Assembly: GCA_030077755.1 (NCBI GenBank)
Contig: JAQJZZ010000004.1
Coordinates: 1-64,000 of the forward strand
Direction of reading: 5' to 3'
DNA from: Filosporella fistucella
Lineage: Eukaryota > Ascomycota > Leotiomycetes > Helotiales
Length of the DNA: 64,000 bases
The notes under the pieces are model-generated. The model did no database searches, was not told the origin of the DNA, and was given only the letters and a program-made list of their open reading frames with translations. Both the position numbers and the translations under genes were made by a program. Below, in pieces: positions 1-62,174 of the stretch (the first letter of the stretch is position 1; every line of letters begins with the position of its first letter).

Positions 1-117
1 CAACCCTAACCCTAACCCTAACCCTAACCCTAACCCTAACCCTAACCCTAACCCTAACCCTAACCCTAACCCTAACCCTAACCCTAACCCTAACCCTAAC
101 CCTAAGCCTAAGCCTAG
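1..117. repeat. Telomere repeat array (CCCTAA)n
   Basis: About 17 near-perfect CCCTAA units run from the first base to about 104. Two or three variant units (CCTAAG) follow, then a CCTAGGG turn. Read outward this is TTAGGG, the usual telomere repeat of filamentous ascomycetes. The left edge of the window is therefore a natural chromosome end, and everything that follows is subtelomeric. Confidence 0.97.
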
Positions 118-3100
118 GGTTGGGTCTTTAAAAATTTATAATAACCCTAACCCTCTTAATGTCTAATAACCTAGCCTCTCCCTCCCCTATTAACTATGGG
201 TGCTCTATTATTCCCCTTAGCCTTTAATTTTTATCGGTCTTAATATATCCTCTTTATACCTATTTATCCTCCTCCTCTATTTTATTATATATCTCACATG
301 CCATCCGCCATATTTTTATCCAATTACTTTCCTAATCCTGACCAAACCCCTCTCCGACCTCCTTTAACCACTCCTAAACATTAACCGCATAATCCCCTTA
401 AAATCCCGTTGCCTCAATAATCACCTATAAATGCTATTACTAATATAATATATATATCCCGGGCAATATCACCTTAGGGTATTTATATCACCTATCATTT
501 TTTAAATACTAGCATATTTATTACGATAATCCACACTTTTAATAATGCTAAAACTCTCCTAAATTAATATTCGCTCTTTATGCTTTATATGCTATAATCC
601 CATACCCGGACGTAATTGCCTATGGATAATCCTTATATGCGTGTGCCTTGCCTCTCGCTTACTTGCGATACATTAATCCATAATATATATAATCGCCTTA
701 TAATCAATCCATAACCTTAATTATCTAGTCTTACGATGCTTATACTTCCCTTAACCTACCCTAGATAATATCTATTCCCTTAATTATTATGCTATCTTTT
801 ATAATATATATCCCGGGCTTCTCTATTAATTCTTTTCCTTTCGGGCCCCTTGCCTTATTATTTATCTTATACCGGTTATAAAATATATTATCCGTTTGGC
901 TATAACTATTCTCGTCTTAATCTCTATTTATATATTAACTTAAAACCTAACGTTAATATCCTTGCCCTTAAATAAATTCTATTATAGCATCCTCATTAAT
1001 TTGCTTAATAGAATACTCGCTTATAATTTCGCTTCGTCTTTATCCGCTATTATTCTTAACCTATATAATAATAATCGATTCACTAACCTCTCTATTCCGC
1101 CTCCTACGTCCGGATTGCTAAATAAAACTGGTTAACCCATATAATCGCTTAATATAAACCATATATATAATCCCTTTAATATTGATTCCTATCCCTAATA
1201 CCCCGGTGATAATAATCCATCCGCCGGCACCCTAAATCCACTATTATAATACCTTCCCTTTAGATTTTACTCGTGCTTGGTAAAACGGGTAATTTAATGC
1301 TTAATTAACCACTCCTCCTATCTCATAACTCTATACGTATATAACACCTCTCTTCCCTATGCCCAAATGTGCTTATTAAATAAATTTAATAGCTATGTCC
1401 AATGGCACCTCATTCTTGCTATTTCTCACCTAATATTAAATGGTCTTTCGCGCTATATTCCGCCGGAATATCTAGGCATTATTAATGCATAACCGCTCAT
1501 ATAATACATCTTCTAAATTAATTATTAACGTTACTATTAATCCGGTAAATGGGCAATTTAAATATTATAATATCCATAAATCTCGTAACTGCTCGCGGTA
1601 TAATATATTTATAAATGTAATATAAACTTTATTAAAAAATATATGGGCTAATTGCCCTTTTAATTTTAACTCCTTAGCATAATGCAAAAACTCCCCTTAG
1701 ACTGCCCGATTTGCGCTAACTATAATTAATTATTATAATTTATATCCGGATTTCTCATTAATCCATTCCTTATAATTTAAACCGGCTATTTGCCTACGCG
1801 TAATAATGTTATTTATTAATATGGTAAATGGCATTATAACGATGACCGTCTATTATTAGGTTATTACTACTATTAAAAAAAATAATGCTAACTTGCCATT
1901 GCTAATGGGTAATATAATAATTAACGGTTATATTTTAAATGGATAATGGATTAATTATAATGCTAACGCCTATCCTTTTAATCGTGGTTTGGCTTGGGAA
2001 TTATAATATATCCGCTATAATCTAATTAATATTAAATTGGATCCTTTAATCCGCTCTCTCTTAATAGGCCGATTAATTAACTGCTAGCTAGCTTTATATT
2101 AATAACCGGTTCCTCCTATATTATAACTATTACTAATGCTATTATAGCCTAACTTTCATAATCCATGCTATGCTATTAATGCTTGCTTATATGCCATGAT
2201 TAACTCGGGCCCTAATCGATATAAAAATGCCCCGTTAATGGCATAATGCGCTTGCGCTACCCTATATCCATATCCGGATTACCTATACTTTATATTAATT
2301 AAATATTTTATATATATCATTTCCCCTGCCCGGCTAGGGAAATTAAACCTATTAAACCATAATATATCGAAATATATCCAACTCTAATTCCTTATTATTA
2401 TCTCCTTTAATAAACTCTTTAATTCCATCTTTGGGCTCCTTATGCTCCTTTTTCCACGTCTTACTAGCCTGCATTAACTTCCGGGTGGCAATTCCAATTA
2501 TAATATGCCTCTATCCGGATACCTTTAAATATATTCCTAAATGCTTTTTAGTAATGCTCCCTAACGCCTAGCTTAACTCCTCCCCGGCCCATAATCCTTA
2601 CAAATCCCTAAATAAATATTCCGACTCACGATAATTTAATGCCCGGGCAAATGGTTAAACTCATATTAAATACTAGGCTATAATTTGGCTAATATCATCT
2701 AATAAATACCGTATAATATACTTTATATTCCCTCTTTTCTTCCGCGCCTTATTATATATAATTAAAAAATATATCTAACCATTTATAATATATATATTAC
2801 GTGCCGAATATATATTATTGCTTACTTTAATGGATCTTAATTCGGGTCCACGTATAGGCTAGCCTCCTAATCTAATAAATAACCGTATAATGGATAAAAT
2901 GGGCGGATATACCGGTAATATGCATATATATTATTAACTTCCGTAAAAATTAATGTTCCTTAATTAAATATAATATAACTTACGAATCTACCTACTTAAT
3001 TTTCTTAGTGGCGTGGTTTATCCTTAATAACCTCCACTAGCCCTCTCTTTTCCGTGCTCGCTCTAATAAAAACTTATAATCCCCGCCTACTTAGTCCTAA

Positions 3101-5189
3101 TTTTAGGCATAATTAATAAAACTAAAATTTTGCCGCTAAAATGCTTGGCTCCATGCTATATTATTAATAATTCGACTCAAATCGATAAGGGGCACTAGGG
3201 ATCCAAATGTTAACACTTTTATTAATTCCTGCAATTCTTTAATTAATGCGTGACACATATTCTAGACCTTAGCTAATATAATTAGCTAGCCTAAATAATT
3301 AATCATTTATTCATTATCCGACTAATGGATATTAGATAGTAACTAGTGCATTTTATTAAATTTCTTTCCTATAGCCAATTGCATTAAAATACTGGATGTG
3401 GGTAAAAATGAACCCTTACACAAATGCAATTATTATAACTTATGGATTCAATTAGGCATGGAATTAATATCGGCTTTACTATTCAATTTTAATTTTAGCT
3501 ATGGCTCATATGGGACGGCCACTTCTAATATAATTAATCGATTAATCTATAATATGCCTACTAAAATGGGCATATAAAAAAATGCGGATTATAATAACTA
3601 GCTTTGCTTATTAATACCTCGGATGGCTAAATAATGCATTATGGGTAAATAATATAATCTAATTCGGCTGATATCCTGCATTATAGTTAATATATATAAA
3701 TATATTAATGCACTAGTCAATGGTTAATCTTTTATATTATTATCTATTACTTCTTTATTTAATTCACTCCGGATTCTTTAAATGCACTTCCACTATGCGT
3801 TAATATATCTTACTCCGGTTTCTATAATCGTGGTCAAATTTTCTATTATATTTTAAAAATTATATTTAAATTATTAAAAATAATCCAATATACCTATTTC
3901 ATTTATATAATTTTCTAATGGCGCTATACGCATTATATAATAAATAAAACATATAAAAATTCCATTATATTTATTAACGCTTTTGGCATTTTATAATAAC
4001 TTAAATGGGCGCTAGTCCGCGGCTTCATTTTTAGGTAATGCCCACCACTTTAATGCGTCTTTATGGTCGGTTGCTTTTAATATATTTAAATAATGCTTTA
4101 AAATTCAATTCCATGCACGTAATAATCGCTTTAATTACGGTTCGTTTAGGTCGGGCATATGGGTATAATAAAATGTCTTAATTAAATTGTGCTTAAATTG
4201 GCTTAATACCTCATTTCACTTTATATATTATAATCACGAATCCATTTTAACGATGGGCACTTCTTTTAATATCCGTAATCGCTACTCTTAGGCCTTATCC
4301 TTCCATTTTTCGATGTCCTAGATAATCTAGTCATTAATATTATCCTGGTCGCTCTTATTATTATTAATATTATTATTATTGCTATGGTTTAAATCATTGG
4401 TTTTTTCTCTAATATCACGTGTTATGGCTCGGTGCCTTTGCCGCTCTTGCTTATATTGCTTGCTCTAATTAATAATTTAATATCGGGCTCGTCGATTATT
4501 AAACCATAATTATAACTTAACTATCTTAAATAATTCTTTATCGGAAACCCTTTTTTTGTTATAAATCTTATTCCCATGCTATCATATAACGTCTCGGTTC
4601 TAGCTTATATATGGGCAATCCTAACATAAATGGCCGTCTAAAATGGGAATAATGGGCTAAGGCGCTAATCTATTACTAGGCAATCGTACACTGGTATAAT
4701 TATACTAAAACGGAAATATTTAAACATATTTATCTAATTCTTTTTATAATTTGATTAGGGTTTTATGCTTATTACCTAAATGTCGGGAAATGGTAATAGG
4801 CGAAATTGCATATTTATATTATAAATAAATTAATATGCTAAACTTAACGTTTAACGTAATAATATGATTTAATGCTTTAGGGATGGGTTGAGCCATAGCT
4901 CCTTGGCTATCTATGGTATTTTGAAATAATTTTAGGTAATATATAGGCGGTAATAATGGGTTTGGGGTTACTTGGGGTTAACCCATTTACGCTATGACTG
5001 GGCATAGACTATACTTTAATTTCACCACTATAAAAAAACCCATTCACGGTGTGAATAATGATAACTAATGTTAGGGGCTTAGGGAAGAGATATGACATAA
5101 GTGATATTTATTTAAGGGAGAAGTAACTAATATTGGGAGAAGTAATAGTCGTGGTAATAAGATTATTTTAAGGTAAATAGGATTAAATA

Positions 5190-5265
5190 TTATATAATAT
5201 TATATATTATTAAATCGGGTAACGCTTTGCGATTAAGCTTAATATAATATTATATAATATTACGT
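5190..5265 (+). repeat. Pair of AT direct repeats
   Basis: Two copies of a roughly 22 bp motif built on TAATATTATATAATATTA lie at about 5191-5215 and 5241-5263. They flank a short GC-richer spacer (CGGGTAACGC). The repeat may be a relic of a longer duplicated element; no function is visible. Confidence 0.4.
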
Positions 5266-5415
5266 GATAAGCCTAGGTCCTTATTAAAATGAAATTAGAG
5301 AAGTTATAATTAAGATAAAGGTAAGGAATAAAGGGCATGCGATGCGCGATTAATTCCTGGCCTATTTGCATCCGATTAGCACCTAATTTGGCCCTAGATT
5401 AATTTATCTTTATTA

Positions 5416-5492
5416 TGGTCGCCGTCGAGGATCGCGGGGGCGAAGCGTGGCCGCCTCGCTTAGCCGGCCGCCGCCCGTAACCTGGACGGGTT
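5416..5492. other. GC- and CpG-rich island inside AT-rich DNA
   Basis: About 75 bases of very GC-rich sequence (GCCGTCGAGG ... GCCGGCCGCCGCCC) stand alone in the AT-rich block. The island is rich in CpG and has almost no CpA, so RIP would have had little to act on. It may be a surviving fragment of the original repeat. It does not fold into a tRNA that I can recognise. Confidence 0.45.
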
Positions 5493-5610
5493 ATTATATG
5501 GGCCGATGCTCATATAATGGTTCTGGGTAAGGGATAGGTATATCACAAAGACGTTTTGGTTTGCAATATTATTAAGTATAAAGAATATTATTTAAAGTTG
5601 AGCACGAAGC

Positions 5611-6213
5611 TCTTATTTAATGGCAGAAGTGCTAGTCTTATATAGAACCTTCGTCCTTAATTGGATCCCTAGGATCCCTTGGGGCTGGATCCGTGGATTC
5701 CCTTTTAATATCTCGCTTATGGGGATCCAGGGATCCATCACGTGATCGCTCCCTCGTGACTTCCCCTACGCGGTTCTTAGGACTATTAAGAGGCGGCGTA
5801 TTTCCTATCCTATTCTTGTGATAAACCTGTGACCATAACAATGACCTTGATTATTTAATTATATTTGGCAATTTATAGGAACTCCTTAAGCACCCCTTAA
5901 ATAGTTTAACTCTAATATTTTAAAAGGGTTAGAGTTTAGTCTTATATTAGAATATAACTTATTTTACTTATTGAATTGCTTCCCATTTATACGTCTCACA
6001 AACTATTAGCTTTTATTCTATTATTATAGTAATCCCGTAATTATAATATAATGTCTTAAATTTTATAAAAAGAATTATTATTTATATCTTTTAAGGATTA
6101 TAAAGAAATCCATTTGCCTTTAAAATAATGTTTCAAATAATTCTTAAAGTAGAGCTCTAAAGTCGCATTATTAATTCTGGTACAAAATTAAAAATATATA
6201 AAATATTACTCAT
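5611..6213. other. Transition DNA without a recognisable gene
   Basis: The stretch 5630-5800 has moderate GC with several GGATCC-type repeats and a 67-codon reading frame on the minus strand that resembles nothing I know. From 5850 to 6200 it is AT-rich and probably forms the 3' flank of the gasdermin-like gene. Confidence 0.4.
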
Positions 6214-7062
6214 TTATACCCTAAATGAATAGACCTCTCCATGGTCTTCATGACAAATAATGTTTTCCGACCCTTCTTCAAGAATATCTTTATCCATTTC
6301 ATTAGTAAGCATAGCTTCAATAAACTCTAAGTCCTCTGGTTCCTCTCCCCTTTGAACCATCAATACTTTCCAGCATTGTCGATCTGCGAGCATTGATGTC
6401 TCCACCTTTTTACTGGTGAAAAGTTTGAATTTCACTCGTCGATATTCCACCGCGTAAATAAGTCCCTCGTCCTCCAAATTGAAACTTTCATTGACTGATC
6501 TCGAGCTTTCTGTTGACCCTTTTGCTTGTATGTCAAAGATTCCTTGGGTTGAAATTGGCGTCCCTACTGCTAGCTCAGGAGCGACCGTGAATTTTCCTTC
6601 AGCAGCCGAGCGCTTCGATTCTGAAGCTACCACAGTTGCTCCTTTGATGATATGTAATCCTATGACAAAGTAGAGCCGAGGGTTGAAATTATCAGTCAAT
6701 GCGGCTTGCTCCTCAAACCATTCTCGAGCTTGCTCTGAGCGACAAGTCTTGCCGAACCAAGAAGTGGTGTTCTTCAAGCTTGACACGAATGCTTCTGCTG
6801 CCGTGATTCCAAGGGACATTTCATCGTTTCTGAATAGTCTAGTAGATAGTAATTTGGTGAAAGACAATCCAGCCTCGGCGTTACTTTCCACTTCTAATAC
6901 TTTCTTGAAACCTTCTAGCTTTACGGTTTCAATTTCTGTCTGAGGTGCAGCAGAATCTTTATAATAACCTTTCAGGGGCTCGCGCTGATCAAGAACGAGC
7001 CATCCAAGCTGAATGGCTCCGATAGGAAGGAGTCTGGATAGAATATTATTCTCGTGGCGCAT
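6214..7062 (-). CDS. Gasdermin-like pore-forming protein (fungal RCD-1/HET-Q1 type), candidate
   Basis: This is an uninterrupted 282-residue reading frame with no signal peptide. The length fits fungal gasdermin-like proteins (about 240-290 aa). It begins with a short hydrophobic strand (residues 11-25, LLPIGAIQLGWLVLD). Mixed helix follows, then a long beta-rich stretch (about 128-215) containing LYFVIGLHIIKGATVVASES and a Ser/Thr-rich loop. It closes with a 45-residue tail from residue 238 that carries 15 Asp/Glu. Known family biology: these proteins are autoinhibited, and removal of a roughly 5 kDa C-terminal piece lets the rest form membrane pores and kill the cell in allorecognition. The assignment rests on overall pattern plus the divergent CHAT protease gene next door, not on a search. 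An unrelated orphan protein is the main alternative. The ATG at 7062 has a good context and no upstream exon is evident. Confidence 0.6.
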   Translation of the reverse strand: MRHENNILSRLLPIGAIQLGWLVLDQREPLKGYYKDSAAPQTEIETVKLEGFKKVLEVESNAEAGLSFTKLLSTRLFRNDEMSLGITAAEAFVSSLKNTTSWFGKTCRSEQAREWFEEQAALTDNFNPRLYFVIGLHIIKGATVVASESKRSAAEGKFTVAPELAVGTPISTQGIFDIQAKGSTESSRSVNESFNLEDEGLIYAVEYRRVKFKLFTSKKVETSMLADRQCWKVLMVQRGEEPEDLEFIEAMLTNEMDKDILEEGSENIICHEDHGEVYSFRV

Positions 7063-7497
7063 TGTGAGTTTTTGAGATTTTGATCACAATTATCAAGTGA
7101 GCAGTGGTGTTCTAACAAATTTTTCTAAATTGACACAACAAATTTTTGCAATGGGATTCTTAAGGTGGGTTGAATTTCATCTCCAAATTGCGATTAATTT
7201 TCCAATGAATGCTTAGGGGGTAGCATCTGATCTTTCAATCAGGTGATTTTAACAGTCTTCAATGGGTGCATTCGGAACACACCGTGTGGCTTGATAGCAT
7301 GATTTTGTATCAGCTCTATGCCTCAGCTGAGAAATATACTACCTATAGGGCCTTTTAATTATAAATTCAGATGATTTTTGCCACTTGCTCAGCCCACACC
7401 TCACCTGTTTATGTAAGGTGTTAGTGGCGTGTCCTGTATTCAGGTCGGCTCATTAAGGTATTTCGGTCGCGGGGGTGCGAGTACCTGCGAAGTCTGG
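7063..7497. promoter_or_regulatory. Residual divergent promoter region
   Basis: About 435 bases lie between the ATG of the gasdermin-like gene and the left end of the transposon-like element. Composition is ordinary here, unlike the RIP-like DNA on either side, and no ORF is present. Before insertion this DNA would have been the shared upstream region of the gasdermin-like and CHAT genes. No specific factor site could be assigned. Confidence 0.45.
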
Positions 7498-8779
7498 TAT
7501 AGGCTACCCACCAATTATATTTTAGCACTCTTCCCACCTCTCTTTTGTTTATTCTGCTGCTTTAATAATTATGGATTCTAAAATTGAAGCTATTTATATA
7601 CCTGTTTCAAAGATTTATAAAGACTTCTCTTATAATAATAAGCTTAAGCTATAAACTCTTTATTATATTATAGGATAAATTATGCATAACCTCCTTTTAT
7701 AACACCCTTAATTCTCACGTTATTAAATAGATTATGCTTTATAAATATAATTTATGCTATAAAAGAAAGGCAATTATAAAAGGCCTAGGCTTTTCAATAT
7801 CCTTAAAAGAAAAGAACTTATATGCTAGGTTATTTCAAACTCATTTATATGCGAAGTATTATAAGCAAGTATTCTTAAATAGCTTAAATAAAATAAATAA
7901 TATAGAGAAAAAGCTATATAAAATGCTTTAAAGAAAGAAAGTTATTATTATAGTATAAGAAGATGCAAATTATTATTCTTTATAAAAAATTAGCGCAAAT
8001 AGCTTAAATAGGCTCTTAAGCACGAGAATCAAACCTTAAATTAATAGGATTTAATTTTTTAAAGTAATAAGAATTAGATATAACCTAGTTATTATAAATA
8101 ATAATAGGTTATAAGACTACTTAATAATAAAGAGCTTTATTATCCGGATTATATAATTTATAAATAATAAAGAAAAATTAAGTAAATATTTTAAGGGAAT
8201 ATGAATAATAAATATAATAAAGGCTTTAGAATCTTTTAAGAAAAGGAATAAAAAATAATTATAAAAGAATCCTATTCTTAAAGGATTATTCCTTAAATTA
8301 TAAAATATATGCATATGCATTTAAGCCTTGAGTTTTAATAAGATAAAAGGCTAAGGCATATTGCTATATATATTATAAATGTCTTTACTAATTATAATAT
8401 ATACCCTATTTTCTAGCTTTTCTTTTTACCGGACCTCTTACTTATAAAGAATATATAGGATAAAATAAAGGATATTTTGCAAGCTTTAAATCCATAGGTC
8501 CATAAGAATTATAGGAGGCTTAGGGCAGCAGTTTTAAAAGCATAGGAGGCAGTTATAAATGAAGAAGTAAGGGCCCTTATATATAATATGCCAGAGCGCT
8601 ATAGAGTAGTAATAGCCTCTTAAGGTGCATAGATAAAGTTCTAAATAACTTTACTTTTTATAGAATCCAAAGTGTATAAATGCAAAGGCAGTATAAAGCA
8701 GCATCCCGTAGAGTGGTGTGAAAAAGGGTGGGAATAGAGTGGCAAAGTGTCTGTGCTTTTACAATTAATAGGGCCTGTA
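7498..8779 (+). mobile_element. RIP-degraded Tc1/mariner-like DNA transposon
   Basis: A relic of about 1.28 kb. The left end (TATAGGCTACCC ... AGCACTCTTCCCACC) matches the reverse complement of the right end at about 8721-8779 (TACAGGCCCTAT ... GCCACTCTATTCCCACC), giving imperfect terminal inverted repeats of roughly 45-60 bp. The interior is very A-rich, and TpG is almost absent in several lines, as expected from C-to-T change on the minus strand. A broken transposase frame starts near 7571 (MDSKIEAIY). It ends near 8640 with a segment, interrupted by stops, that resembles the C-terminus of fungal Tc1/mariner transposases (EEVRALIYNMPERYRVVIAS). The right end lies only 37 bases before the first ATG of the CHAT gene. 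Confidence 0.6.
7571..8645 (+). pseudogene. Broken transposase of the Tc1/mariner-like element
   Basis: The reading frame opens with ATG at 7571 and holds many TAA/TAG stops, with a 65-codon open piece at 7734-7931. The clearest surviving homology-like part is the final 45 codons (about 8510-8640), where A-to-stop positions fit Trp (TGG to TAG) and Gln (CAA to TAA) codons. The DDE catalytic residues cannot be located with confidence because of decay. Confidence 0.5.
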
Positions 8780-8816
8780 TGAAGTACGCCAAATTGAGAC
8801 AATTTCCACCCGTCTT

Positions 8817-11800
8817 ATGATACACAGGCGATATTTTCCCACCATTATATCCGTCCATTCCACATCCAACGGGGTTTTACTTCATCTACACGCTGATGTT
8901 GGAACAAGATTCTCCAAAAGTTCTAAATTCTTATCATCAAACCGCTTTCAACAATACCTGTCCTTGGCTCGCGCCGTTAGTTGCGAAGTTATGGACTCTG
9001 AACATGTTTCCCCGGTGCATAATTCACCAGAAAGTTCTGTACCATCCGATGCAGAACGCCTTGACGAGCTCAGCTACAAGTCATACACCCTCTTCAGAAA
9101 AAGTGGGAACACATCGCATCTCATTGCAGCGAAAGAATTACTTGAGCAAGCTCTCCTCCTTATGGAAAAAGACCATCCTGATCGACCTCTTGCTCAAGCT
9201 AAGTTGATCGATTACCTCAACTGCATGTTCGAGAAAACATACTCGACCTCATGGCTCGTCGAAGCCCAGCGGCTTGGAGAAAAGGCTTTGCAAGAGATTT
9301 CTGCAGATTCAAACACGAAAGAGCGAGCGATCGCTCTGACACACCTTGCCAACACATGGGAATTGATGTACAATCTTACCGACGATATGAAAGATCTCAT
9401 ACGAGCTATAGACCTGTCAGAAGGAGCACTGGAGTTGATTACGCCGTCCCACGAACTCTATTTCCTCATTGCCTCAACTTTGGCGAACGAACTGGAGTCA
9501 AGATGCAGTCGCTTACGGGAACCTTCTGACATCGAAAGAGCCATAACTCTCGCTCAATCAGCCTATGATTCTACCGCTCCAGATGATGAGGAGAAGCCGT
9601 GGGCAGCGTCCAACTTATCAGTCAAGTTCTCTGTGAGATACAAAATTTTGGGGAATATCTCAGATCTTGAGAAGGCTATTGCACTTTGTAATGAAGCAAT
9701 AGATAAAACAGAAGAGGGTTCCCCTGGCAAGTCAATTCGACTTCGAAACCTTGCATCTTTGTTGTCATTGCGTTATGACGAGCAAAAAGAAATGGCTGAT
9801 TTAAGGCGCTCGATTGATTCAACGAAGTTAGCGATATTATCACTTCCCCCCAACGAGATGTCTAGGCTTTTCCTGTTGAATGACTTGGCATATCGATATG
9901 AGAAAGCTTTCGACGGAGATGTTGATATGAATGATCTGGCTGAATCAATTCGCTGGAGCAAGATAGCTTCCTACAACATTGTGAGCCTACCCTCTGAAAT
10001 CCAGGAGCGGCCAAAATATAGGGCAACTTGGAGTGAACTACAGCATCGATTGGTGAAATTGGCCCAGATTGGCTACAAAGAGACAGGAAATTCTTCCTAT
10101 TTGTCGATTGTGGAGTGGTCAAAACAACACCTTACGGGATTCAGCGAAACACAATCCAGCAACATACCCTCTGAACAAAGTGATGGACGGGACATGACAG
10201 GCAGTGATTCAAGTAGTGTGCCGCAGTTTGACGACTCGATAAACCGCGACGGCAGGGCAAACAAAGATACAGCTCCATCTTCTAGCCTGGATAGTTTGTA
10301 TGAAAACTTCGATTCAGCTCGTCGTGAGCTTCTGGCTCACCAAGCTGAAGACAATGCCAATCCATGGAGCCAAAGTCTTGCGACTGCAAAAAATCGTGTA
10401 CTTGAAGCTTCTACTACACTCCGAGATGTTGATAATTCTATCAGGCATTTCAAAGCAATAATTTTCGATTCCAAGCCAGACGACCCGACTCTTGGGGGTT
10501 TATATGACTTCCTGGGTACTCTACACATCATGCGATTCAAACTCACAGGAGAGCTAGTTTGTATCGATGAAGCTATTGCTGCGAGTACAGAAGCTGTTGT
10601 CAAGACTACCATCAATGACTACAGACGCACTTGGTTTCTCAACAATCTCGGAACACATTATATTTCAAAATTCGAAAAGATGGGTGAGACAGAGGACCTC
10701 CAGAAAGCTGTCACAGCATGTGAGGCAGCGGTTGCTGCGTGTCCCATGACTGTCGAAGACCGAGTGACATCTTGGGATAACTTAGCGGTTATGCTTTGGT
10801 CACGATTCAAAAGAATGGGATCTGTGAAAGATCTGGAGAGAGCAATATCTATCAGTGGAGAATGTGTTCCTTTCCTCAATGAAATTGAAAGCCCGGAAAC
10901 CGAAGCGAGGGTTTTGTCAAATCTCAGTAACTACCTAGCCAGTAAATTTGAGATCACGTCTGACTTGGTCGATATTGACCAAGCAATACACTTCATCCGC
11001 CGAGCGCTACAGATAGGACGAGGAAAGAACTTGGGTATTGATCCTAGATTTATGAACAACCTCTCAAACCAACTAGCCCAACGATACTACGAATCAGAGA
11101 GAGACGAAGACTTGGATGAATCGATTGAATGGGGGAAAAAAGCTCTGGATAATTCAGATGACTCAGATATCAATCTCATCGGGCGAAAACACAATCTTGC
11201 AGGCAAGCTCGGCAGTAGATTTGCGAAGAAACGAAATGATGCTGATTCGCGACTCGCCATTAAGTTGGAACGAGAAGTTCTCTCAAAAATACCCACAAAT
11301 GATCTCAACCGTACCATGTATATGAAAACATTGGCAGGTCTACTTCGCGAATCAGCTGAAGACGACCGCTCTAAACTGGACGAAGCCCTAGACTTATATA
11401 GACAGGTCGCTTTTGACACTACAGCAACCCCTTCAAGACGAATCAACGCCGCTGGACTTGCTTCCAACTATATCTTGTTGCCCCAAAAACGGTATAAAGA
11501 AACTAGCGACCTTCTTGAGGCATCTATTGAAGCCATTCAGGTCCTGAGCCCTGGCTGGCTAGAATCATCTGATAGGGAGAGGTTATTGGGTACTGTTGCT
11601 GGCATTCCGGCGGACGCAGCGGCTGCTGCCATTCTTGCTGGTAAAGGACCTCAACGAGCACTTGAGATCCTAGAATTGAGCCGTGGAGTAATCATTGGAT
11701 CTGTCATTGATACTAGAGTAGAGATATCGGGAGTCGATCAGCTTGATCACGATTTGTACCAAAACTTTGTCGAAATTTGCAAACAACTTAATGAAACGGA

Positions 11801-13076
11801 AGGAACAAATGTGGATGCCTCGATCACTTTTTCTGAAGAAACGGACGGCAATCCTGTCTCAAGACGCAAGCAGAAAGTCAATACTTGGGAAGAATTGCGC
11901 AGGAGAATTCGTTGTCTTTCCGGTTATGAACGCTTTCAATTACCCCCTACCCTGGAAGAGCTTGCAGCTATTGGGAACAAAGGCCCAGTTGTCTACATCT
12001 TCTTCAGCAAAATTATAGACAAAGGCTTTTGCATTATCGTAGAGGAACATGAAACCTCAGTGCTGGAACTTCCCTCTATGTCCTTCGAGCAGATTGTGGA
12101 ACATTTCGTTCATCTGGACGAAATTGCCTATCTGTCTAAAGGTGGCATTAAAACTTATCATGCGAGGACCTTGGCCATGATTGACATACTTCAGTGGACT
12201 TGGGATGCCGCAGTACACCCCATTCTATCAAAATTGAACCTTCTACAGCAGCCAACGGCGAACTCCCTCCAACGTGTCTGGTGGATTGGGGTCGGGCTCC
12301 TTAGCCGATTTCCTTTCCATGCTGCAGGCGACTACTCTGTGTCTCCTCCTACATGTACTTCACAATTTGTCATGTCATCATACATCCCTTCCATCAAATC
12401 TCTGCTATTTGCAAGATCAAAAGAAGCACTCAACTTCATCAAAAAAGACTTGGGATTGATGGTGATCACTATGCCACAAACACCAGGCTATGCGAATCTC
12501 AATGCTGTGGAAAAAGAAGGAGAGGAAATCAACTCTATATGTACCAATTCAGTCTCGTGCTCAAGGTTCAACAAACCAAGTTCGAAATTAGTGCTGGAGG
12601 AATTCAAAAACTGTAACCTGTTCCACTTTGCTGGCCATGGAATCATGGTACAAGCCGATCCATCTCAAAGTCACCTTCTCCTTTGCAAAAAAGATCAAAA
12701 TGGAAACGAACTAGTCGATAGGCTAACAGTCGAGAGCATTCGTAGCTCAAATGCAACTACCAATGGAATCGCATATCTTTCCGCCTGTGTTACAGCCGAA
12801 AATGCGTCGGTAGAGCTAGCTGATGAAGCTTTGCAGCTGTCATCAGCCTTTCAACTTGCGGGGTTTAGTCATGTGCTCGGTACTGTTTTCAATGCGCAGG
12901 ATCGTATATGTATTCAAGTGGCAAAGGCTTTCTATGGGAATTTATTTGACGGAACAAGAGACGAAAATGGCCATGCGAGGGTCGCCTTATCATTTCATCA
13001 GGCTGTGGAAGGAGTTAGAAGGAAGCGGCCAAGTGATCCTCTTTCTTGGGCACCATTTGTTCATATTGGTGCTTAA
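8817..13076 (+). CDS. TPR-repeat protein with C-terminal CHAT caspase-like protease domain
   Basis: This single-exon gene encodes 1,419 residues. Residues about 75-960 form a long array of TPR-like helical hairpins with repeating L..A...Y patterns and EEAI/LEKAI-type units. The C-terminal third is a CHAT domain. It has a GLLSRFPFHAAG segment, the catalytic-type His in FAGHG (His1274) and the Cys in YLSACVT (Cys1324), 50 residues apart as expected for this caspase/separase-related fold. CHAT-TPR proteins act as regulated proteases. In fungi, caspase-related proteases are commonly encoded beside gasdermin genes, and a gasdermin-like gene lies divergently upstream here. The first 58 residues look less protein-like, so translation may instead start at the ATG at 8991 (MDSEHVSP). 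Both catalytic residues are intact, so the gene looks functional. Confidence 0.85.
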   Translation: MIHRRYFPTIISVHSTSNGVLLHLHADVGTRFSKSSKFLSSNRFQQYLSLARAVSCEVMDSEHVSPVHNSPESSVPSDAERLDELSYKSYTLFRKSGNTSHLIAAKELLEQALLLMEKDHPDRPLAQAKLIDYLNCMFEKTYSTSWLVEAQRLGEKALQEISADSNTKERAIALTHLANTWELMYNLTDDMKDLIRAIDLSEGALELITPSHELYFLIASTLANELESRCSRLREPSDIERAITLAQSAYDSTAPDDEEKPWAASNLSVKFSVRYKILGNISDLEKAIALCNEAIDKTEEGSPGKSIRLRNLASLLSLRYDEQKEMADLRRSIDSTKLAILSLPPNEMSRLFLLNDLAYRYEKAFDGDVDMNDLAESIRWSKIASYNIVSLPSEIQERPKYRATWSELQHRLVKLAQIGYKETGNSSYLSIVEWSKQHLTGFSETQSSNIPSEQSDGRDMTGSDSSSVPQFDDSINRDGRANKDTAPSSSLDSLYENFDSARRELLAHQAEDNANPWSQSLATAKNRVLEASTTLRDVDNSIRHFKAIIFDSKPDDPTLGGLYDFLGTLHIMRFKLTGELVCIDEAIAASTEAVVKTTINDYRRTWFLNNLGTHYISKFEKMGETEDLQKAVTACEAAVAACPMTVEDRVTSWDNLAVMLWSRFKRMGSVKDLERAISISGECVPFLNEIESPETEARVLSNLSNYLASKFEITSDLVDIDQAIHFIRRALQIGRGKNLGIDPRFMNNLSNQLAQRYYESERDEDLDESIEWGKKALDNSDDSDINLIGRKHNLAGKLGSRFAKKRNDADSRLAIKLEREVLSKIPTNDLNRTMYMKTLAGLLRESAEDDRSKLDEALDLYRQVAFDTTATPSRRINAAGLASNYILLPQKRYKETSDLLEASIEAIQVLSPGWLESSDRERLLGTVAGIPADAAAAAILAGKGPQRALEILELSRGVIIGSVIDTRVEISGVDQLDHDLYQNFVEICKQLNETEGTNVDASITFSEETDGNPVSRRKQKVNTWEELRRRIRCLSGYERFQLPPTLEELAAIGNKGPVVYIFFSKIIDKGFCIIVEEHETSVLELPSMSFEQIVEHFVHLDEIAYLSKGGIKTYHARTLAMIDILQWTWDAAVHPILSKLNLLQQPTANSLQRVWWIGVGLLSRFPFHAAGDYSVSPPTCTSQFVMSSYIPSIKSLLFARSKEALNFIKKDLGLMVITMPQTPGYANLNAVEKEGEEINSICTNSVSCSRFNKPSSKLVLEEFKNCNLFHFAGHGIMVQADPSQSHLLLCKKDQNGNELVDRLTVESIRSSNATTNGIAYLSACVTAENASVELADEALQLSSAFQLAGFSHVLGTVFNAQDRICIQVAKAFYGNLFDGTRDENGHARVALSFHQAVEGVRRKRPSDPLSWAPFVHIGA

Positions 13077-13639
13077 ACTTTGCATTATTTTCATGAATCT
13101 GTATCTGGCTGTTTGAAATCCCGGGTTGGGTGTGATTGATACTACCAGAAATGGAGGGATCGGGGAAGAGGAGGAGTTGTCCCGTCAAGGAAGACTTTGG
13201 TCCAATTCAAATAGGACGCCTCCCCGCATAAAACTCTAGATTTCTGCGACCTATCAGTGTTTAATTGAGGACTCAGGACATAAAGTGGGGTTGGACACGT
13301 CACATGCATTCGAGTCGTCTTATTATTGTGGGAATCCAGGTTACTTACTCGAGATGCGCGTCTATACCAAGGCTTGAGTCTACAGCCGGCTAAAGTCTTC
13401 TGATAAGTGCAGAAAGCAGAGATTAGGTAGTTTTTTTGAACGTAAATACCAAGGCACATCCGACATTTCTAGCTCAAAATATTTCTTGCCCGGCGGCATC
13501 AAGCTAGGTCCAAAATATAACCATTATGGCAATGTATCAGCATCAACCTCGTCGATTCTTTCTCCTAACACATCTTCGAACCGCATCCAATCTATTAGTG
13601 CGTATGCTTGGCATCGAAAATAAACCTAGTTACTCTAGC
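13077..13639. other. Intergenic, nothing recognised
   Basis: This is the 3' flank of the CHAT gene. A 105-codon minus-strand frame at 13142-13459 has no recognisable features and an unlikely composition, so I do not call it. Confidence 0.5.
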
Positions 13640-14345
13640 TAAATTCGAAGAGGAGGAAGTTTTTTCTTTCTTCCTACTCTTCAAATGCAGATTTCAGGGG
13701 CTGGCCACGTATATCGTGACAAAAATCCTTCAAGTAGATCTTGCAATTTGCTTCCCATTCATATCCAGTATGTGAACTGATGAAACCCTTCCACTGCCGG
13801 ACCTTGAAAATATTGCATCGAATCATCTCTTTTGACTTTCCGTCGGCCCCACAAGAACCTAAGTAATATCGTGTGAAAGGGCATCCGCATTGAAGTCGAG
13901 GATCACTGTAATGAGTGCTACATGACATGTAGAAAATGCTTCACTTCCGTAGAAGATGATCAGTGCCTCTTGTAGATCTGGCGGCATGATCGAAGCATGG
14001 AAGGGGTCAGGCCAAAGTTCGAGTACTCAAGGTGGTAACCATCAACGCCATGCTGGCGAAACATAGGTATTCCTAGATCAACACTAAGCAAAGTATCTCG
14101 TAGATCATATTGCGGGCTTCGATTAGTATCATCTCCAGGAAGTGCAGCCTAAGGCCACGTCCGATTGACTCGAGAGTGCAGTGAGACACATTGGGATTTC
14201 GCCTTGGATAGACAGTGGTGTTACGCTGTATGAGATGAAGGGAGGAGATCTGAAGCCATGGGGCTCTGGAAATAAATGTATCTGTGTTTAGCTTAGAGAA
14301 AGCTGCCCTATTATCAAACAATGATGCGTCAAGTCTTGTGCGGAC
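13640..14345 (-). pseudogene. Relic of an F-box-like/conserved fungal gene
   Basis: Fragments in different frames line up like the N-terminal part of a common fungal family. They are IEARNMIYEIL (about 14080-14110), then LTPSMLRSCRQIY (about 13990-14020), then EALIIFYGSEAFS (about 13935-13975). Such families usually read LP.EIRNMIYE ... LLRTCRQIY.EALPILY. The last two fragments are split by a one-base loss and the first two by another frame change, so no full protein can be made. Recognition rests on these motifs alone. Confidence 0.45.
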
Positions 14346-21726: not shown

Positions 21727-23880
21727 ATGGCCTACCAATATACCCCTCTTGATAGCGCTGGGTCTCAAATACGGCTGCTCACAGTTCACGTTGACATCAA
21801 GCAAGTTCTTGGAAGATCAAACGTTAAACCATTATCTGGAACGCTATCAAATTATTACCTTCCCGTTGCTACACTCTCTCGTACGCGTCGTCTTGTTTTG
21901 AGCTCCAAAATTGGCTACTATCTTGCGCTATCTTACGTTTGGGGTGACCCCACGAAGACACATGAAATCATTCTCGATGGCAAAACTCTTCGCATCACAG
22001 AAAATCTCTACAATAGACTTCGTGCAGTTCAGAAGAGTGTGCCGGCCAACTTCAACATCTGGGCTGATGCCATTTGCATCAATCAAGAGGATGATGAAGA
22101 GAAATCAGCTCAGATTCTTCTCATGAGAGAGATCTATCATTCTGCAACCTACGTTCGCATCTGGCTGGGTCCGGGATCTGATGTTGCTAAACGTTGCTTG
22201 GATTTCGTTGATAAATTAACTTGGGCACTACTCGTAACATATGAATCAGAGGATAAGGAAGACTCGGCCATGGACGAAGCTTTAGTAAAGCCATGGCTTG
22301 CAACAGGAGAGTTTCTGGGGAATACGTTCATACGGATCGGTCAAGCTGTTTCCATAGTGAATGATATCCAAGACCCCGCTGCACGAAATGATGCAAAACT
22401 CTTGACGCCAGATGAAGATCTCTCCCTCCATCAAGCTTCGATTGAAGGTGTTTCAGATTGGCGACCATCAGAGCGCCGATTGCGGAAGGTTGAATACGAA
22501 GGCGATTTTGTTGAAATAGCTCACCTATTGGGTGCTTTGTTTATACAAAATGACTGGTTCTCAAAAATGTGGGTTGTCCAGGAAGTCGGGGCAGCTGAGG
22601 ATGTTGAATTTCAAGTTGGCGGTGTGGCTGTCAACTGGCGGTATGTTGTGCGGGCTCTCTACTATCTTCACTTTACTAGGGATATACAGATACCGCATAT
22701 TACGAGGTATGTGACTTCACTTTTCATGGTTCATTTCTCACGAAATTTAGATTGACTGGACTCGAGAAAATTCGTGCTGGATGGAACATCAGGAAGCGGC
22801 AACCACTGAGAGATTTGATCCGTGAGTGTCGTTACAGGTTAGCTACGAATCCACGAGATAAAGTTTACTCTCTCATTGGTTTGATGGGAGATCAAATGAA
22901 TGAATACTTGACCCCAGATTACACGAAACCTATAGGAGAGGTTAGTTGCTCCCTCTTTAGACAGTGGTTGCTAATGTTGTCAGGTATATGCAAACACCAC
23001 ACTGCATTTCATTACTCAAGCAGGATCTATTGATCCCATATGCGGGTGGCAGACTTTGAATCGCAACGAAAGGTCCTGGGGCCTCCCCTCTTGGGCACCA
23101 GATTACTCCTTAGACCAAGATTCTGCTCCGTTCCCAATTGCTTCAATCGATGGAAGAGAGTGTGTCTTCACAGCATCGGGTTACGGTTCCTCTAGATACA
23201 CCAGAGACCAACCAGGGATGGACTGGAGGGTGCTGTCTGTGTCAGGGTTGCGCATCGATACTATTTCAGGTCTATCCGGGTTCAATAGCAGCGATGAATC
23301 ATTCGGAGTTCTCGAGGCACGCTGGCGATCTGAATTTTATGCCTCCCAGCAGGTTCCTCAATCATCGGTAACTCAATTTGGTGATTGCATGGATGACCTG
23401 GTGCATTTAGTTGAGACAGAGTCCAGGTCCTCACCCCTCGATTGGCCAAGGCTCAGCAGCTGCCTGTCACTCGAACTGTACATTCAAACCCTCCTGTCTG
23501 GTCGAATCTCTGCTAGAGAGCGGTTGAAATGGAATGACTTCCTCTCTTCGGTATGTGGCGAACTATCAAACGATCCAGAAAAAAGCGAAAAGCAAAGGCA
23601 ATATATCTCCGAGATGCGCGCAATTTTGAAAGCTCGTCTACTGCATCGAAGGCTAGCTGTCACTAAAGAAAATCACGTTGCGGCTGTGCCGGAGGAAACT
23701 CATCTTGGAGATATTATTTGTATTCTTTTTGGATGCAATATACCTGTTGTCTTGCGCGAGTTATCTGATCAGACCTATCGATTTGTTGGAGAATGTTACA
23801 TTCACAAGTTCATGGATGGGGAAGCAATTGCTATGCAAAGAAAAGGCAAGATGCAAGAGCAAGGTTTTCAATTGATGTGA
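21727..23880 (+). CDS. HET-domain (heterokaryon incompatibility) protein
   Basis: Three exons (21727-22706, 22751-22940, 22984-23880) joined by 44 and 43 nt introns with GT-AG ends give 688 residues in a continuous frame. The HET domain lies near residues 63-160. Its three signature blocks are YLALSYVWGDP (65-75), FNIWADAICINQEDD (109-123) and REIYHSATYVRIWLG (134-148). Later parts carry NPRDKVYSLIGL and the usual C-terminal FVGECYIHKFMDGEA. HET proteins trigger growth arrest and cell death when partners differ in allorecognition, and the domain is TIR-like. The ATG at 21727 is the first in frame. The gene appears intact and converges on the phytochrome-like gene. Its individual partner cannot be inferred. 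Confidence 0.9.
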
Positions 23881-24486: not shown

Positions 24487-27400
24487 CTAAGCCTGAACCC
24501 CTTTAAACCAGCCACCACTCTCAAAATAGCCTCTCTTGTACAAACACGAGTCCCTGATATCATTATCGTATATTCCATTCATCAATAAACCCAGCCGTTT
24601 AAAGTCAATAGGTTTCATGATCCACCCATCAAAGCCCGTGGCCATATATTCATCACATAAATCTTCCAGTAATGATGCTGAGACAGCAAAAATCGGAATT
24701 CTTCCTAGCAATGCTGCCTTCTCGGAGAGCTTTGGTGAAGTGTATTCAAAATCCCTGATCAATCTTGTGGAGCCATGTCCATCAATGATAGGCATCTAAA
24801 AGTTCGTTAGCTATCTCCAAGAAAGTTCTCAGAGGCATCACCTGTAGATCCATCAATATGACATCAAATTCGTCAGGTCTGGACGCAAAAGTATCTGCGC
24901 AGGCTTGCCCATCTGTTGTGATTGATACCTCATGACCCATCTTGGATAGACGAAGGTTGAGAATTTTTGCATTGAGAGGATTATCTTCTGCAACAAGGAT
25001 TCGTAGACTAGCTAGAGCAGCGTGAAAATCTACCATTGAAGGAAATGGAAATCCTCTACTGTTTTGAAAATCATCTCCTGAACCGATCACGGATGCCTGT
25101 GACTGCATTGAAAGAGGGGAGGATATATATTCCGAGGGAGTTATATCAGTGACAGGTGTCTGTATTTCCCGTATCTCGGACACTTCCATCAGACATTTGT
25201 CGATGTCAGCTGCACGCTCCTCGATGTTCTGCAGCAAGTCTGCCATTGCTTGATCAGAGGAGGGAGTTTCCAAGACAGATACCTGATGAGCAGGTGAAAC
25301 ATCCATGGTCATTCGCAAGTAGACTGTCGTACCGTGCTCCGGTTTCGATCTTATTCTGAGTTGGCCTTTGTAATTCCGCACATATCGAGCCACAACTGCC
25401 AGACCCAGGCCGACAAAATCGACTTCTGCTTGCCTTTCATTACTCTGCTCACTATCATGGGCGATGTTTTCGAGACTTTGGAAGCAACTGTCTAGTTGTG
25501 CCTCGGACATTCCCTTGCCTTGATCTTCTACGGCCACTTCAACAACCACGTGACCATCCCTTTCATCAACGACTCCGAGACTTACAGTCACTTTCCCCAC
25601 TACTGTGTTCTGAATTGCGTTGCTTAAAACATTGGATATTGCCTGTCTGAGTCTTGCTGGATCTCCTCTGACAAGTGTTGGTAGTCGCTCGCATTGCAAA
25701 TTAGCTTGGAGGATCAAATCTTTGCGGAAGGCCTCTTGAGCGAAGGCTTCGACGACGCTATGTATCTCGTGCTGCAAGTCAAAAGTTTCCGCCAATAACA
25801 TCTGATTAGTTCCGTTGGCCCGGGTGAGATCAAGAAGATCGTTGATGGCAAAAATTAGTGATTTCGAGGCAGTGAGTGATTTCCCAAGTTGCTCTCGTGT
25901 AATTTCATCAACATTTCCATCTAAAATGACTTCGAGATAATTGATGATGGAATTGAGAGGGGTTCGTACTGTAAATATTAGAAGTGGACATATTGCTAAA
26001 ATAGTGAACTTACTTTCGTGTGAAGCGTTGGAGATGAGCAATTTCTTTACTCTACTACTTTCTTCGATTGCTTCTTTCTGCCTCCAAGTTTTTATAAAGG
26101 TTCCATAAAGAAGACCGATAACTGTTGCAATGTCCACTCGAAGGTGTCAGCAGGATTGATTGATGTTCAGACGGACATACATACTCTGATCATCTGTCCA
26201 CTCTCTACTTGTGTCCGTTATATGCTCAACCCACCTCAATAGTCCTGCCGTAGGTTCTGGTACCACGCCTCCGACGTATTGAAACTGCTCTTGCTCGTTC
26301 CCCGCCCAAAATATCTCCAGGAGCTGTCCCTTCCTGAACATTGTCAAAAAGTCCGCTCCAGAATCCGAGAGCGGGATTACCAGTACTCCAGCAAGAACTT
26401 TGAAACCTGGTTGGTATTCTAAATCCGGAAAATCAGTCGCAATCTTTTGCGATGAAATGACTTTCTGCGGCTTCTTCAAGCAAAAATAATGCAAGAGGGC
26501 AAGCGCTTCTTGGTACGCCTCCAATTTTCCAAGAGACCGAGCCTCTCCATTCAATGTCAGAATCCCAAACTCAGCGCCAAAAACCTGGAGAAGATTGGCA
26601 GTATCTGCCGCAAGAAATTCCGCTGGTGATTTCAACGACAATCCCGCCATTAATGATGATCTGAGCTCAACCTTCTCCTTGGAAAGTAACCTCTCAATGT
26701 GTGTCGATAATAGGCCCCCAATAGCTCTGCAGAGCTCCTTAAGTGGCGGAGAGACGACCGTGATTTCAGCGTCATAAGAATGGCACATGACTAGGCCCCA
26801 GAGTTCATGGTTAACGATGATTGAAATCGACATGGCAGAAGTGACTTGCATTCTTGAGAAATACTCGACCTGCTCGGGAGGGAAAGCTCTCAAGTAGCAG
26901 CGGGATAGATCTAGAGGGAATTTTGCTCCTTCGCGATCAACGATCGAGGAGACAGGAGAAAGCTTCTCACGCAGTAGCTGCACTCTGTCGAGTTTATGTA
27001 ATTCTCGAATAGGAACTGGCACATCTGATGAAGGGAAATGCAGACCAAGAAACACATCTTTACTGGCCTCTGGGTTCAACATTTCACCAACCACGGCACC
27101 GCACTTGCACTCATCAAACCTATATACCATAACACGATCGAAATTTGTTATCTCCGAAACGGTTCCGACAGCAACATCGTACAACTGAGGGATGGAGGTG
27201 GTGTTTGTGCACTGGCGCTGAATCTGGTTCAAAAGAGCAATCGCATCGATTCGACCTTCAGAATCCGAATTTTCTCCTCGGCGATGCCGCAATGGGTAAC
27301 TCTTTCTGGTCGTGGCATTTTTGTATTCCGCTTCGGTAGGGTTGTAGTTGAGTCTTTTGGTGGGTTTTCTGATTTTAGTTCTCTTCGTCAATCTGGGTTC

Positions 27401-27922
27401 AAGAGATGGGATGTATTTCTCAAACTCGCAAACTAATATGTTTGAATCAAGGAGTGTAGCATGAACAGAGCACCAGAATTTAGAGACCTGACCTGTGGAG
27501 GACTTAATTGATACCGGGAAAACCTCCGGGTCTGGCAAATTTGGTGCATGTGGATGTGAGGCATTTTCCAAAACAAACTGAAGGCAAGATTTGAAAGCTT
27601 CTCGGTCGTCACTGATAACTTTACTGAAGCAACTAGCGCTGAAAACATCTTCCAAAGAAAGATGGGTGATAGCGGTGATGTTGTCGCTGACGGCGAGGGC
27701 ATTGAAACCAGATTCTGATTTGCGCAGTGCTGCCAAGGCTCCGAGTGATTGAATTTCATTTACTAAGTGAGCCAGATTACTTGTCTTGAATGCTGCTTTG
27801 GCGGTTTGGTCTCCCCATACTTTGGGGCCATCGAACTTTGATCTTCTTTTGGTATGACACTTTGGAGCTTCGATATCTACACTCAGTTCTACCGGATTTG
27901 TTAGATGAAGATTCTCGTTCAA
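24487..27922 (-). CDS. Phytochrome-like hybrid histidine kinase with degenerate photosensor
   Basis: Four exons (27922-26185, 26136-26014, 25968-24842, 24795-24487) with 48, 45 and 46 nt introns give 1,098 residues. The order is PAS (about 40-170), GAF (225-415), PHY (420-580), HisKA with SHEIRTPLN (phospho-acceptor His619), HATPase (N box near 730, DQGKG near 770) and a receiver with MDLQMP (Asp994). This is the fungal phytochrome layout. Transmitter residues look intact. The photosensor does not. Lys46 sits where the bilin-binding Cys belongs (spacing to IQSLG at 57-61), and Gln351 replaces the GAF His in the SP.H.. motif. The PHY-tongue PRxSF motif reads PTAGLL. Asp300 of SDVP is kept. Two long frames are joined by an intron whose removal restores DDQMDIATV, so this is one gene. 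It probably signals without bilin. Confidence 0.85.
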
Positions 27923-60808: not shown

Positions 60809-62174
60809 ATGATGCAGCTAGGGTTGTGGCCGGTTAGAAAGAGGCTAAAGATCGCTGTCATCGCGTTCGTTTTAACAAGCATCATTGTTTTTACAGCCAG
60901 GTCAAATATTCAGTACCAGTCGTCCGAGACAGTTGCAAGTCTACCGCGCCTCTTTTTCAACAATAAGGTTTCGAATGGGCAGGAAACAGGTGGGCGCATC
61001 CACTCCGCGACCTGTGCTTCAATAATTGCAGCTAACCAGAGATTCAGTTGGGATTGAAACTCCACTCCAGATTCTCGCTCCTCTTTACGTTAAATCGATA
61101 TTAGACCCCGAGGACGAAGAATTCGACCGACTGCGGTGTCCGACTCCGAATTCGAAGCGTTATGATTATCTCCGAGGACGGGGTGGGAGAGTGAAGAGGG
61201 TGAAGGGGCAGCTCAAATATTTCTTTGCGCTGAACTTGCGGCAATGCGTCGGCATATTACCCCGATTGATGGGTTCGATCCTGGAAACGGTTCGATTTCT
61301 TGGCCCGGAAAATTGCGCGCTCTCGATTGTGGAGGGAGCGTCTGATGATGGAACTCTGGAGATACTGGAAGCTTTGCGTGCCGAAATGGGACACTTGGGA
61401 ATTGAATATCACCTCCAGAGGAGCGAAATAGATTCCAAGGATGGCGACAGAATCGAAGCTCTTGCAACACTTCGAAACTTGGCCCTCGAACCGCTTTTCC
61501 ACAATTCGACTCGGTACTCCCTTGATACATCAGTCATATTCGTCAACGATATTGCTTTATGTATGGAAGATATGCTGGAGTTGATCCATCAGCGCGTCTT
61601 TCAAAAAGCTGACATGACATGCGCAATGGATTGGAATGACATAGATCCAGCGCCGATCTTCTATGATATCTGGGTGGCACGAGCCATAAATGGAGATACC
61701 TTCTGGGAAATTCCCTTGGACGGAGGCTGGAGATTTTCCTCAAACCTCTTTTGGAATCATCCCTCCTCGCGTCAGCGGTACGACGAGCAAAAGGCTTTTC
61801 AAGTATATACCTGTTGGAATGGTGCTGTTGTCTTCACGGCAAAGCCTCTGATGCAGAACAAAATACGATTTAGAAGGTCGAAAGACGGGGAATGCTTCCA
61901 AGGTGAGCCGCGCTTGTTTTGTAAGGACATGTGGATGGAGGGGTATTCCAGAATAGCTGTGGTGCCATCAGTAAATGTCGCATACTCGGATAAGTCTGGC
62001 AAAAAGGTAAAGAAGTTGCATCAATATGTTTCGGAAGCAGTGCGCAGCGAGGGTGTTGATGAATCGTGGAGGATTGCATGGAATAGCACACCACCTGAGA
62101 AGGTCAAGTGCATGGCGGACTTCAACGATCATTCTTGGGTACCTTGGAATGAGGGGTTTGAAAAGAAGATGTAA
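60809..62174 (+). CDS. CAP59-family (GT69) mannosyltransferase
   Basis: Two exons (60809-60989, 61042-62174; intron GTGGGC...CCAGAG, 52 nt) give 437 residues. The N-terminus (MMQLGLWPVRKRLKIAVIAF) carries a type II membrane anchor (about 11-30). The catalytic part shows typical CAP59/CMT1 features: YFFALNLRQCVGILPRLMGS, LSIVEGASDDGTLEILEAL, VIFVNDIALCMEDMLELIHQ, ADMTCAMDW, FYDIWVARAINGD and VYTCWNGAVVF. Family members transfer alpha-1,3-mannose from GDP-mannose, in Cryptococcus for capsule-type glycans. Here it probably makes a wall or secretory glycan. The acceptor site is my choice because it alone rejoins GQET with DSVGIET in frame; its branch site is close to the acceptor. Confidence 0.85.

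Follow-up and report, generated by a model that had tools for sequence, protein, structure and literature searches.

Background

HET-Q1 of Podospora anserina is a gasdermin-like protein that loses a C-terminal fragment of about 5 kDa, and its partner HET-Q2 is a subtilisin-like serine protease. RCD-1, by contrast, becomes active independently of cleavage. Bacterial gasdermins are pore formers that carry a short C-terminal inhibitory peptide and are encoded next to a protease, while Csx29 of the type III-E CRISPR systems is a TPR-CHAT protease dedicated to a partner protein, Csx30. Work by Clave et al. in 2022 is said to have found fungal gasdermin genes clustered with protease genes, the partners including caspase-related proteases and proteases borne on NOD-like receptors (NLRs). 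Here we describe a gene for a small gasdermin-like protein that lies head-to-head with a gene for a tetratricopeptide repeat (TPR) protein ending in a CHAT peptidase domain, in the first 64,000 nucleotides of contig JAQJZZ010000004.1 of the fungus Filosporella fistucella (assembly GCA_030077755.1); we call this whole stretch the window.

The locus resembles HET-Q1/HET-Q2 in having a gasdermin-like gene beside a protease gene and in the presumed removal of a short C-terminal fragment. It differs in the partner, which here is a cysteine protease with a C-terminal CHAT domain (PF12770) on a TPR array and not a subtilisin-like enzyme; the nearest on its contig (C3) of the 27 matches to the S8 subtilisin family in the genome starts at 508,233. 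With RCD-1-1 and RCD-1-2 the small protein shares a homologous core, and RCD-1-1 lacks the acidic tail of about 44 residues found here. In contrast to Csx29/Csx30, the system is fungal and the partner is a relative of gasdermins. A PADLOC search gave no match at E<=0.01 for the protease, the presence of a Csx29 model in PADLOC being unconfirmed, and one weak match (PDC-S15, E 0.022) among eight gasdermin-like proteins of this genome, with none for the window's own, the presence of a gasdermin model being likewise unconfirmed.

We consider it likely that the locus is a two-gene cell-death module, in which a gasdermin-family pore former inhibited by its own tail would be cut by the TPR-CHAT protease and the freed core would perforate the membrane. 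Because clusters of fungal gasdermins with caspase-related proteases have already been described, the pair probably represents a real but already recognised type of fungal cell-death system, and by itself it is an ordinary member of that kind.

An intact divergent gene pair

A first-pass annotation of this DNA had proposed two intact, head-to-head genes near a chromosome end, one for a signal-less gasdermin-like protein with an acidic C-terminal tail and the other for a stand-alone TPR-CHAT protein. The list of open reading frames (ORFs) agrees on both coordinates and orientation: a 282-residue frame on the minus strand faces a 1,419-residue frame on the plus strand, and both are intact. The subtelomeric position holds as well, with the pair 6.2 kb away from a contig end marked by telomere repeats at window positions 4-105. 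The main features of the two genes are as follows.

6214..7062, minus strand: gasdermin-like protein, 282 amino acids, single open frame (ORF; paralogues; family profiles match RCD-1)
6400..6789, minus strand: residues ~92-221, aligning with RCD-1-1 residues 126-244 (profile alignment, mapped by eye)
6217..6348, minus strand: acidic C-terminal tail, residues 239-282, candidate inhibitory peptide (isoelectric point; beyond the RCD-1 end)
8817..13076, plus strand: TPR-CHAT protease, 1,419 amino acids as listed, possibly starting at Met59 (8991; 1,361 amino acids)
9393..11156, plus strand: TPR-like helical repeats, residues ~193-780 (Pfam TPR_10; motif regular expression)
12189..13073, plus strand: CHAT peptidase domain, residues 1125-1419 (Pfam PF12770, E 1.1e-26)
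12636..12638, plus strand: catalytic His1274 codon (alignment/motif)
12786..12788, plus strand: catalytic Cys1324 codon (alignment/motif)

Relationship of the small protein to RCD-1

Single-sequence searches are of little help with the small protein. It matches no Pfam model, and the eight members of its family detected in this genome (see below) yield nothing useful in Pfam, where four families each match one member with a best E-value of 0.041. A PDB search with the 282-residue sequence returned one chance match (E 1), and an NCBIfam search with four proteins returned none.

Family profiles are more informative, and they bear out the gasdermin-like identity proposed at first. We searched 177,635 distinct PDB sequences with profiles of the window protein's close group of four (A1), of all eight members (A2), of the four distant members (A4) and of the window protein with these four (A5). 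Profile A2 has four matches up to E 10, all of them RCD-1 chains (8jyz_A, 3.7e-6; 8jyx_A, 1.9e-4; 8jyz_B, 0.061; 8jyy_A, 1.3); we take the RCD-1-1 and RCD-1-2 structures 8jyx, 8jyy and 8jyz to be those of Neurospora crassa proteins. Profile A5 also matches RCD-1 chains only (E 5.4e-6), and A4 matches RCD-1-1 at 1.8e-4, with unrelated proteins following from 0.24 and weaker. By hhalign comparison, the window's group is itself homologous to the more RCD-1-like paralogues (probability 98.4, E 5.9e-15). The profile comparisons thus largely support membership of the 282-residue protein in the gasdermin family, of the RCD-1/HET-Q1 type.

Recurrence and co-inheritance of the pair

All genome searches covered the window's own genome (45,769,958 bases in 19 contigs). 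A search with the 282-residue protein uncovered three further members (E 2.2e-14 to 1.2e-5), and an independent search for CHAT domains gave 10 matches from 11 candidates, the CHAT counts being lower bounds. All four small genes known from this unbiased search, the window's included, are head-to-head with one of the 10 CHAT genes. Around the other six CHAT matches we found four more small ORFs of gasdermin-like kind; genome searches with three of these (the L031, L018 and L026 ORFs; L023 was not queried) returned only genes already known beside CHAT. A profile search of the genome contigs with A1 produced 22 pattern matches, none of which was confirmed. More divergent gasdermins may exist elsewhere in the genome.

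The first-pass annotation would be refuted if homologues of the two genes were never neighbours, and within this genome they are neighbours: all eight distinct gasdermin-like members detected face a CHAT gene head-to-head, a count that is biased in part by the way the last four were found. Seen from the other side, the 10 CHAT matches comprise eight opposite a gasdermin-like gene, one opposite a different small protein and one for which no gasdermin was detected. The last (C10:336k) is a partial CHAT ORF (L028:5206-5958, minus strand) with tyrosine at the catalytic histidine position and no gasdermin-like ORF within the 18 kb around it (L028, L029); it is perhaps a relict.

The eight members are only 12-26% identical, and they recognise one another. 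In a leave-one-out test against 2,040 ORFs from the window and 19 loci (at least 50 amino acids, stop to stop), a profile of seven members recovered the eighth in every case (E 6.6e-7 to 2.3e-40; best non-member 0.12), the window protein being recovered at 8.5e-35.

Proteases and gasdermins also diverge together. The identity matrix of the eight gasdermins correlates with that of their eight CHAT domains (Mantel r 0.73; 141 of 40,320 permutations are as high), a rough assembly of two ORF pieces serving as the CHAT region of C4:712k. Gasdermins and CHAT domains fall into the same three classes: the window pair with C9, C16 and C4:457k; C1 with C6:314k; and C10:1209k with C4:712k. Judged from these identities, the pairs are co-inherited class by class, with no sign of finer co-evolution. 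If the module works as proposed, the genome would contain three classes of gasdermin-protease pairs, eight pairs in all, each class with its matching type of protease. These would form a natural experiment on the pairing of proteases with the gasdermins they cut, and on the sharing of one executioner by TPR-type and NLR-type proteases.

Architecture of the proteases

The C-terminal CHAT domain of the window protease was annotated at the outset with a catalytic histidine in FAGHG and a catalytic cysteine in LSAC, and both residues stand at these places in our alignment. Across the 10 CHAT matches the cysteine is always present (eight in the alignment, two by motif). The histidine is found in nine, eight of them aligned and the ninth (C4:712k) identified by motif, its histidine lying in an upstream exon; the tenth is the tyrosine-bearing C10:336k. 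The dyad is therefore present in every one of the nine CHAT genes paired with a small gene.

In the window protein the helical repeats are recognised by Pfam TPR_10 at residues 171-205 (1.9e-6, just above the cut-off) and by a regular expression for repeated D-L-x-x-A-I type motifs at residues 193-765. The stand-alone TPR-CHAT architecture of the first-pass annotation holds for this protein; it does not extend to two related pairs, in which CHAT lies in front of a NACHT-like NTPase (C4:712k, 27.0 bits, just above the cut-off; C10:1209k, 4.3e-4, below it). In the remaining gasdermin partners CHAT is C-terminal.

The acidic tail and a possible activation by cleavage

Residues 239-282 of the small protein form a tail of 44 amino acids (about 5.1 kDa) with an isoelectric point of 4.05, against 7.71 for residues 1-238, in agreement with the acidic tail seen at first. 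The absence of a signal sequence also stands up to a crude check: the N-terminus has no strong hydrophobicity, the highest 19-residue Kyte-Doolittle mean being 1.41 at residue 6. Across the eight members the highest 19-residue hydropathy is 0.87-1.44, and this crude hydropathy test indicates no signal peptide or constitutive transmembrane helix in any of them.

The match to RCD-1-1 stops at residue 244 of a 261-residue chain (a construct that may carry a tag), which corresponds, as mapped by eye, to residue 221 of 282 in the window protein. Past the matched region RCD-1-1 has about 17 residues left, and the window protein is about 44 residues longer. Beyond the last matched strand, a boundary picked by eye, each of the eight members continues for 49-102 residues with a net charge of -5 to -14; over its last 45 residues the C6:310k member has a net charge of 0. 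This tail anatomy fits proteolytic release, and the size of the window protein's tail matches that of the fragment of about 5 kDa lost by HET-Q1. Residues 239-282 are a candidate inhibitory peptide that the protease would remove, the position of the cut being a guess.

We propose the following sequence of events. The gasdermin would be held inactive by its short acidic tail, and the TPR-CHAT protein would stay inactive until its TPR region meets a trigger, perhaps a non-self or damage signal. The triggered CHAT peptidase would then cut the gasdermin close to where core meets tail, at about residue 239, and the freed N-terminal core would oligomerise and perforate the plasma membrane, leading to cell death.

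Alternatively, the module may operate without cleavage: the gasdermin would act like RCD-1, through an incompatible variant, and the CHAT protein would serve as its regulator or antagonist by degrading it. Among solved structures the closest relatives are indeed the RCD-1 proteins, which act without proteolysis. We nevertheless find this improbable, given the long negative stretches that all eight members carry where RCD-1-1 ends some 17 residues past the match, and given a protease dyad in every CHAT gene that has a small partner.

The intergenic region and its dispersed element

The two genes of the window pair are separated by a region that contains a repetitive sequence, one that the first-pass annotation does not mention.

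7063..8990, no strand: divergent intergenic region, start-to-start if the protease begins at Met59 (to 8816 if at the first ATG; ORF positions)
7502..8787, no strand: AT-rich dispersed element, ~1.29 kb (five other full-span copies, plus partial copies at five places)

The copy counts are lower bounds; the five other full-span copies are 76-80% identical. By eye, the element has imperfect inverted ends flanked by TA. Its core (7541-8700) has a GC content of 0.24 and a TpA/ApT ratio of 1.20, while the second index of repeat-induced point mutation (RIP) is 1.17 and gives no clear separation; this base make-up suggests decay. The element probably landed inside the shared promoter region. Subtracting its length leaves a gap of 468 bp if the protease starts at the first ATG and of 642 bp if it starts at Met59. 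The first-ATG gaps of the paralogous pairs, taken from ORF positions only, are 324 bp (C9), 660 (C16), 571 (C4:457k), 603 (C10), 628 (C4:712k), 1,346 (C1) and 863 (C6:314k, whose small ORF lacks its N-terminal part). To the left of the element, positions 7416-7500 resemble a place on C10 (94% over 86 bases), and because of this likeness are probably a small repeat themselves. An Rfam search over window positions 5000-14000 gave no useful match.

The protease may start at Met59 rather than at the first ATG, since only about 30 bp separate the end of the element from that ATG and since the three closest paralogues show similarity to it no earlier than residue 77. We rejected gap size as an argument for Met59, both values lying within the paralogue range.

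The element also raises the question of whether this particular pair is still alive. By splitting the shared promoter beside a decayed chromosome end, it might have silenced one or both genes, while the family would remain functional elsewhere in the genome. The element does fill about 1.29 kb of the intergenic region, and the 5.4 kb towards the telomere have a GC content of 0.31, with no ORF of 80 amino acids or more in 1-6213. However, both ORFs are long, intact and not AT-shifted, with composite RIP indices of -0.74 and -0.86 like the rest of the window, and we think it unlikely that the pair is defunct. That the small proteins are dedicated substrates or inhibitors of CHAT proteases rather than pore formers, keeping only a gasdermin scaffold, is suggested by their high divergence and appears very improbable to us, the matched part being the one they have in common with a solved gasdermin, RCD-1.

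Weighing the proposed module

Several observations count against a tail-inhibited gasdermin that is released by its CHAT neighbour. Profile A1, the window's own group of four, matches nothing in the PDB; with A4, A5 and A2 matching RCD-1 and the groups linked by hhalign, we therefore regard the window protein's connection to RCD-1 as indirect but sound. A single-sequence AlphaFold2 model of the 282-residue protein reached a predicted local distance difference test (pLDDT) of only 36.7 and is unusable. Inspection of the surroundings of CHAT genes supplied four of the eight members, and the unbiased counts are for this reason those of the initial four and the cross-matches of the L031, L018 and L026 searches. 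Within the window's class the two identity matrices show no correlation (r 0.005). The window protease has no PDB match at E<=1, and the Pfam TPR matches of its sister proteins are mostly below the cut-off or absent: besides the window protein, C4:457k is above it (TPR-S), C9 and C6:314k are below it, and the C1 and C16 CHAT ORFs have none at E<=0.1. No common cut-site motif is apparent by eye across the eight tails, and the intergenic element might disturb expression of the window pair.

Two simpler explanations of the pair were also rejected: chance ORFs by their length and conservation, and unrelated neighbours by the recurrence of the pair in the genome.

A second family of small proteins

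The CHAT gene C6:648k faces a protein of 279 residues (L020:4015-4854, minus strand) with no detectable gasdermin similarity (E 0.66). Weak matches to TPR models (8.2e-5, below the cut-off) occur in the ORF directly upstream of this CHAT ORF. In the PDB the second small family obtained chance-level matches only (best E 0.64). The sole detected paralogue of the 279-residue protein lies at C15:2132097-2132696 (E 3.0e-5, 28% identical), in an ORF (L042:5474-6388, minus strand) whose neighbours on the same strand encode ankyrin repeats and an S8 subtilisin domain.

These two loci hint that both TPR-CHAT and S8 protease types can serve a second effector family. It is possible, albeit doubtful, that each of three co-inherited classes of CHAT proteases in this fungus is devoted to its own gasdermins while another, unrelated effector family can also occupy the same head-to-head slot. 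In that case the proteases of fungal cell death would act as exchangeable triggers for two or more unrelated executioners, and the second small family would add to the known fungal effectors that proteases trigger.

Chromosome-end setting and neighbouring genes

The position at a contig end is unique to the window pair, the remaining seven pairs lying at least 270 kb inside their contigs. Positions 1-6213 of the window are an AT-rich chromosome end behind the telomere repeats, and both RIP indices of 1-5400 are shifted relative to the genes. Positions 21727-22755, some 9 kb further inward than the pair, encode a protein with a HET (heterokaryon incompatibility) domain (PF06985, 5.6e-27). Adjacent minus-strand ORFs at 24782-27922 carry GAF/PHY phytochrome domains and histidine kinase/response regulator domains, and likely form a single fungal phytochrome gene with an intron. 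Near the far end of the window, a CAP59-type mannosyltransferase is encoded at 61026-62174 (PF11735, 4.6e-71).

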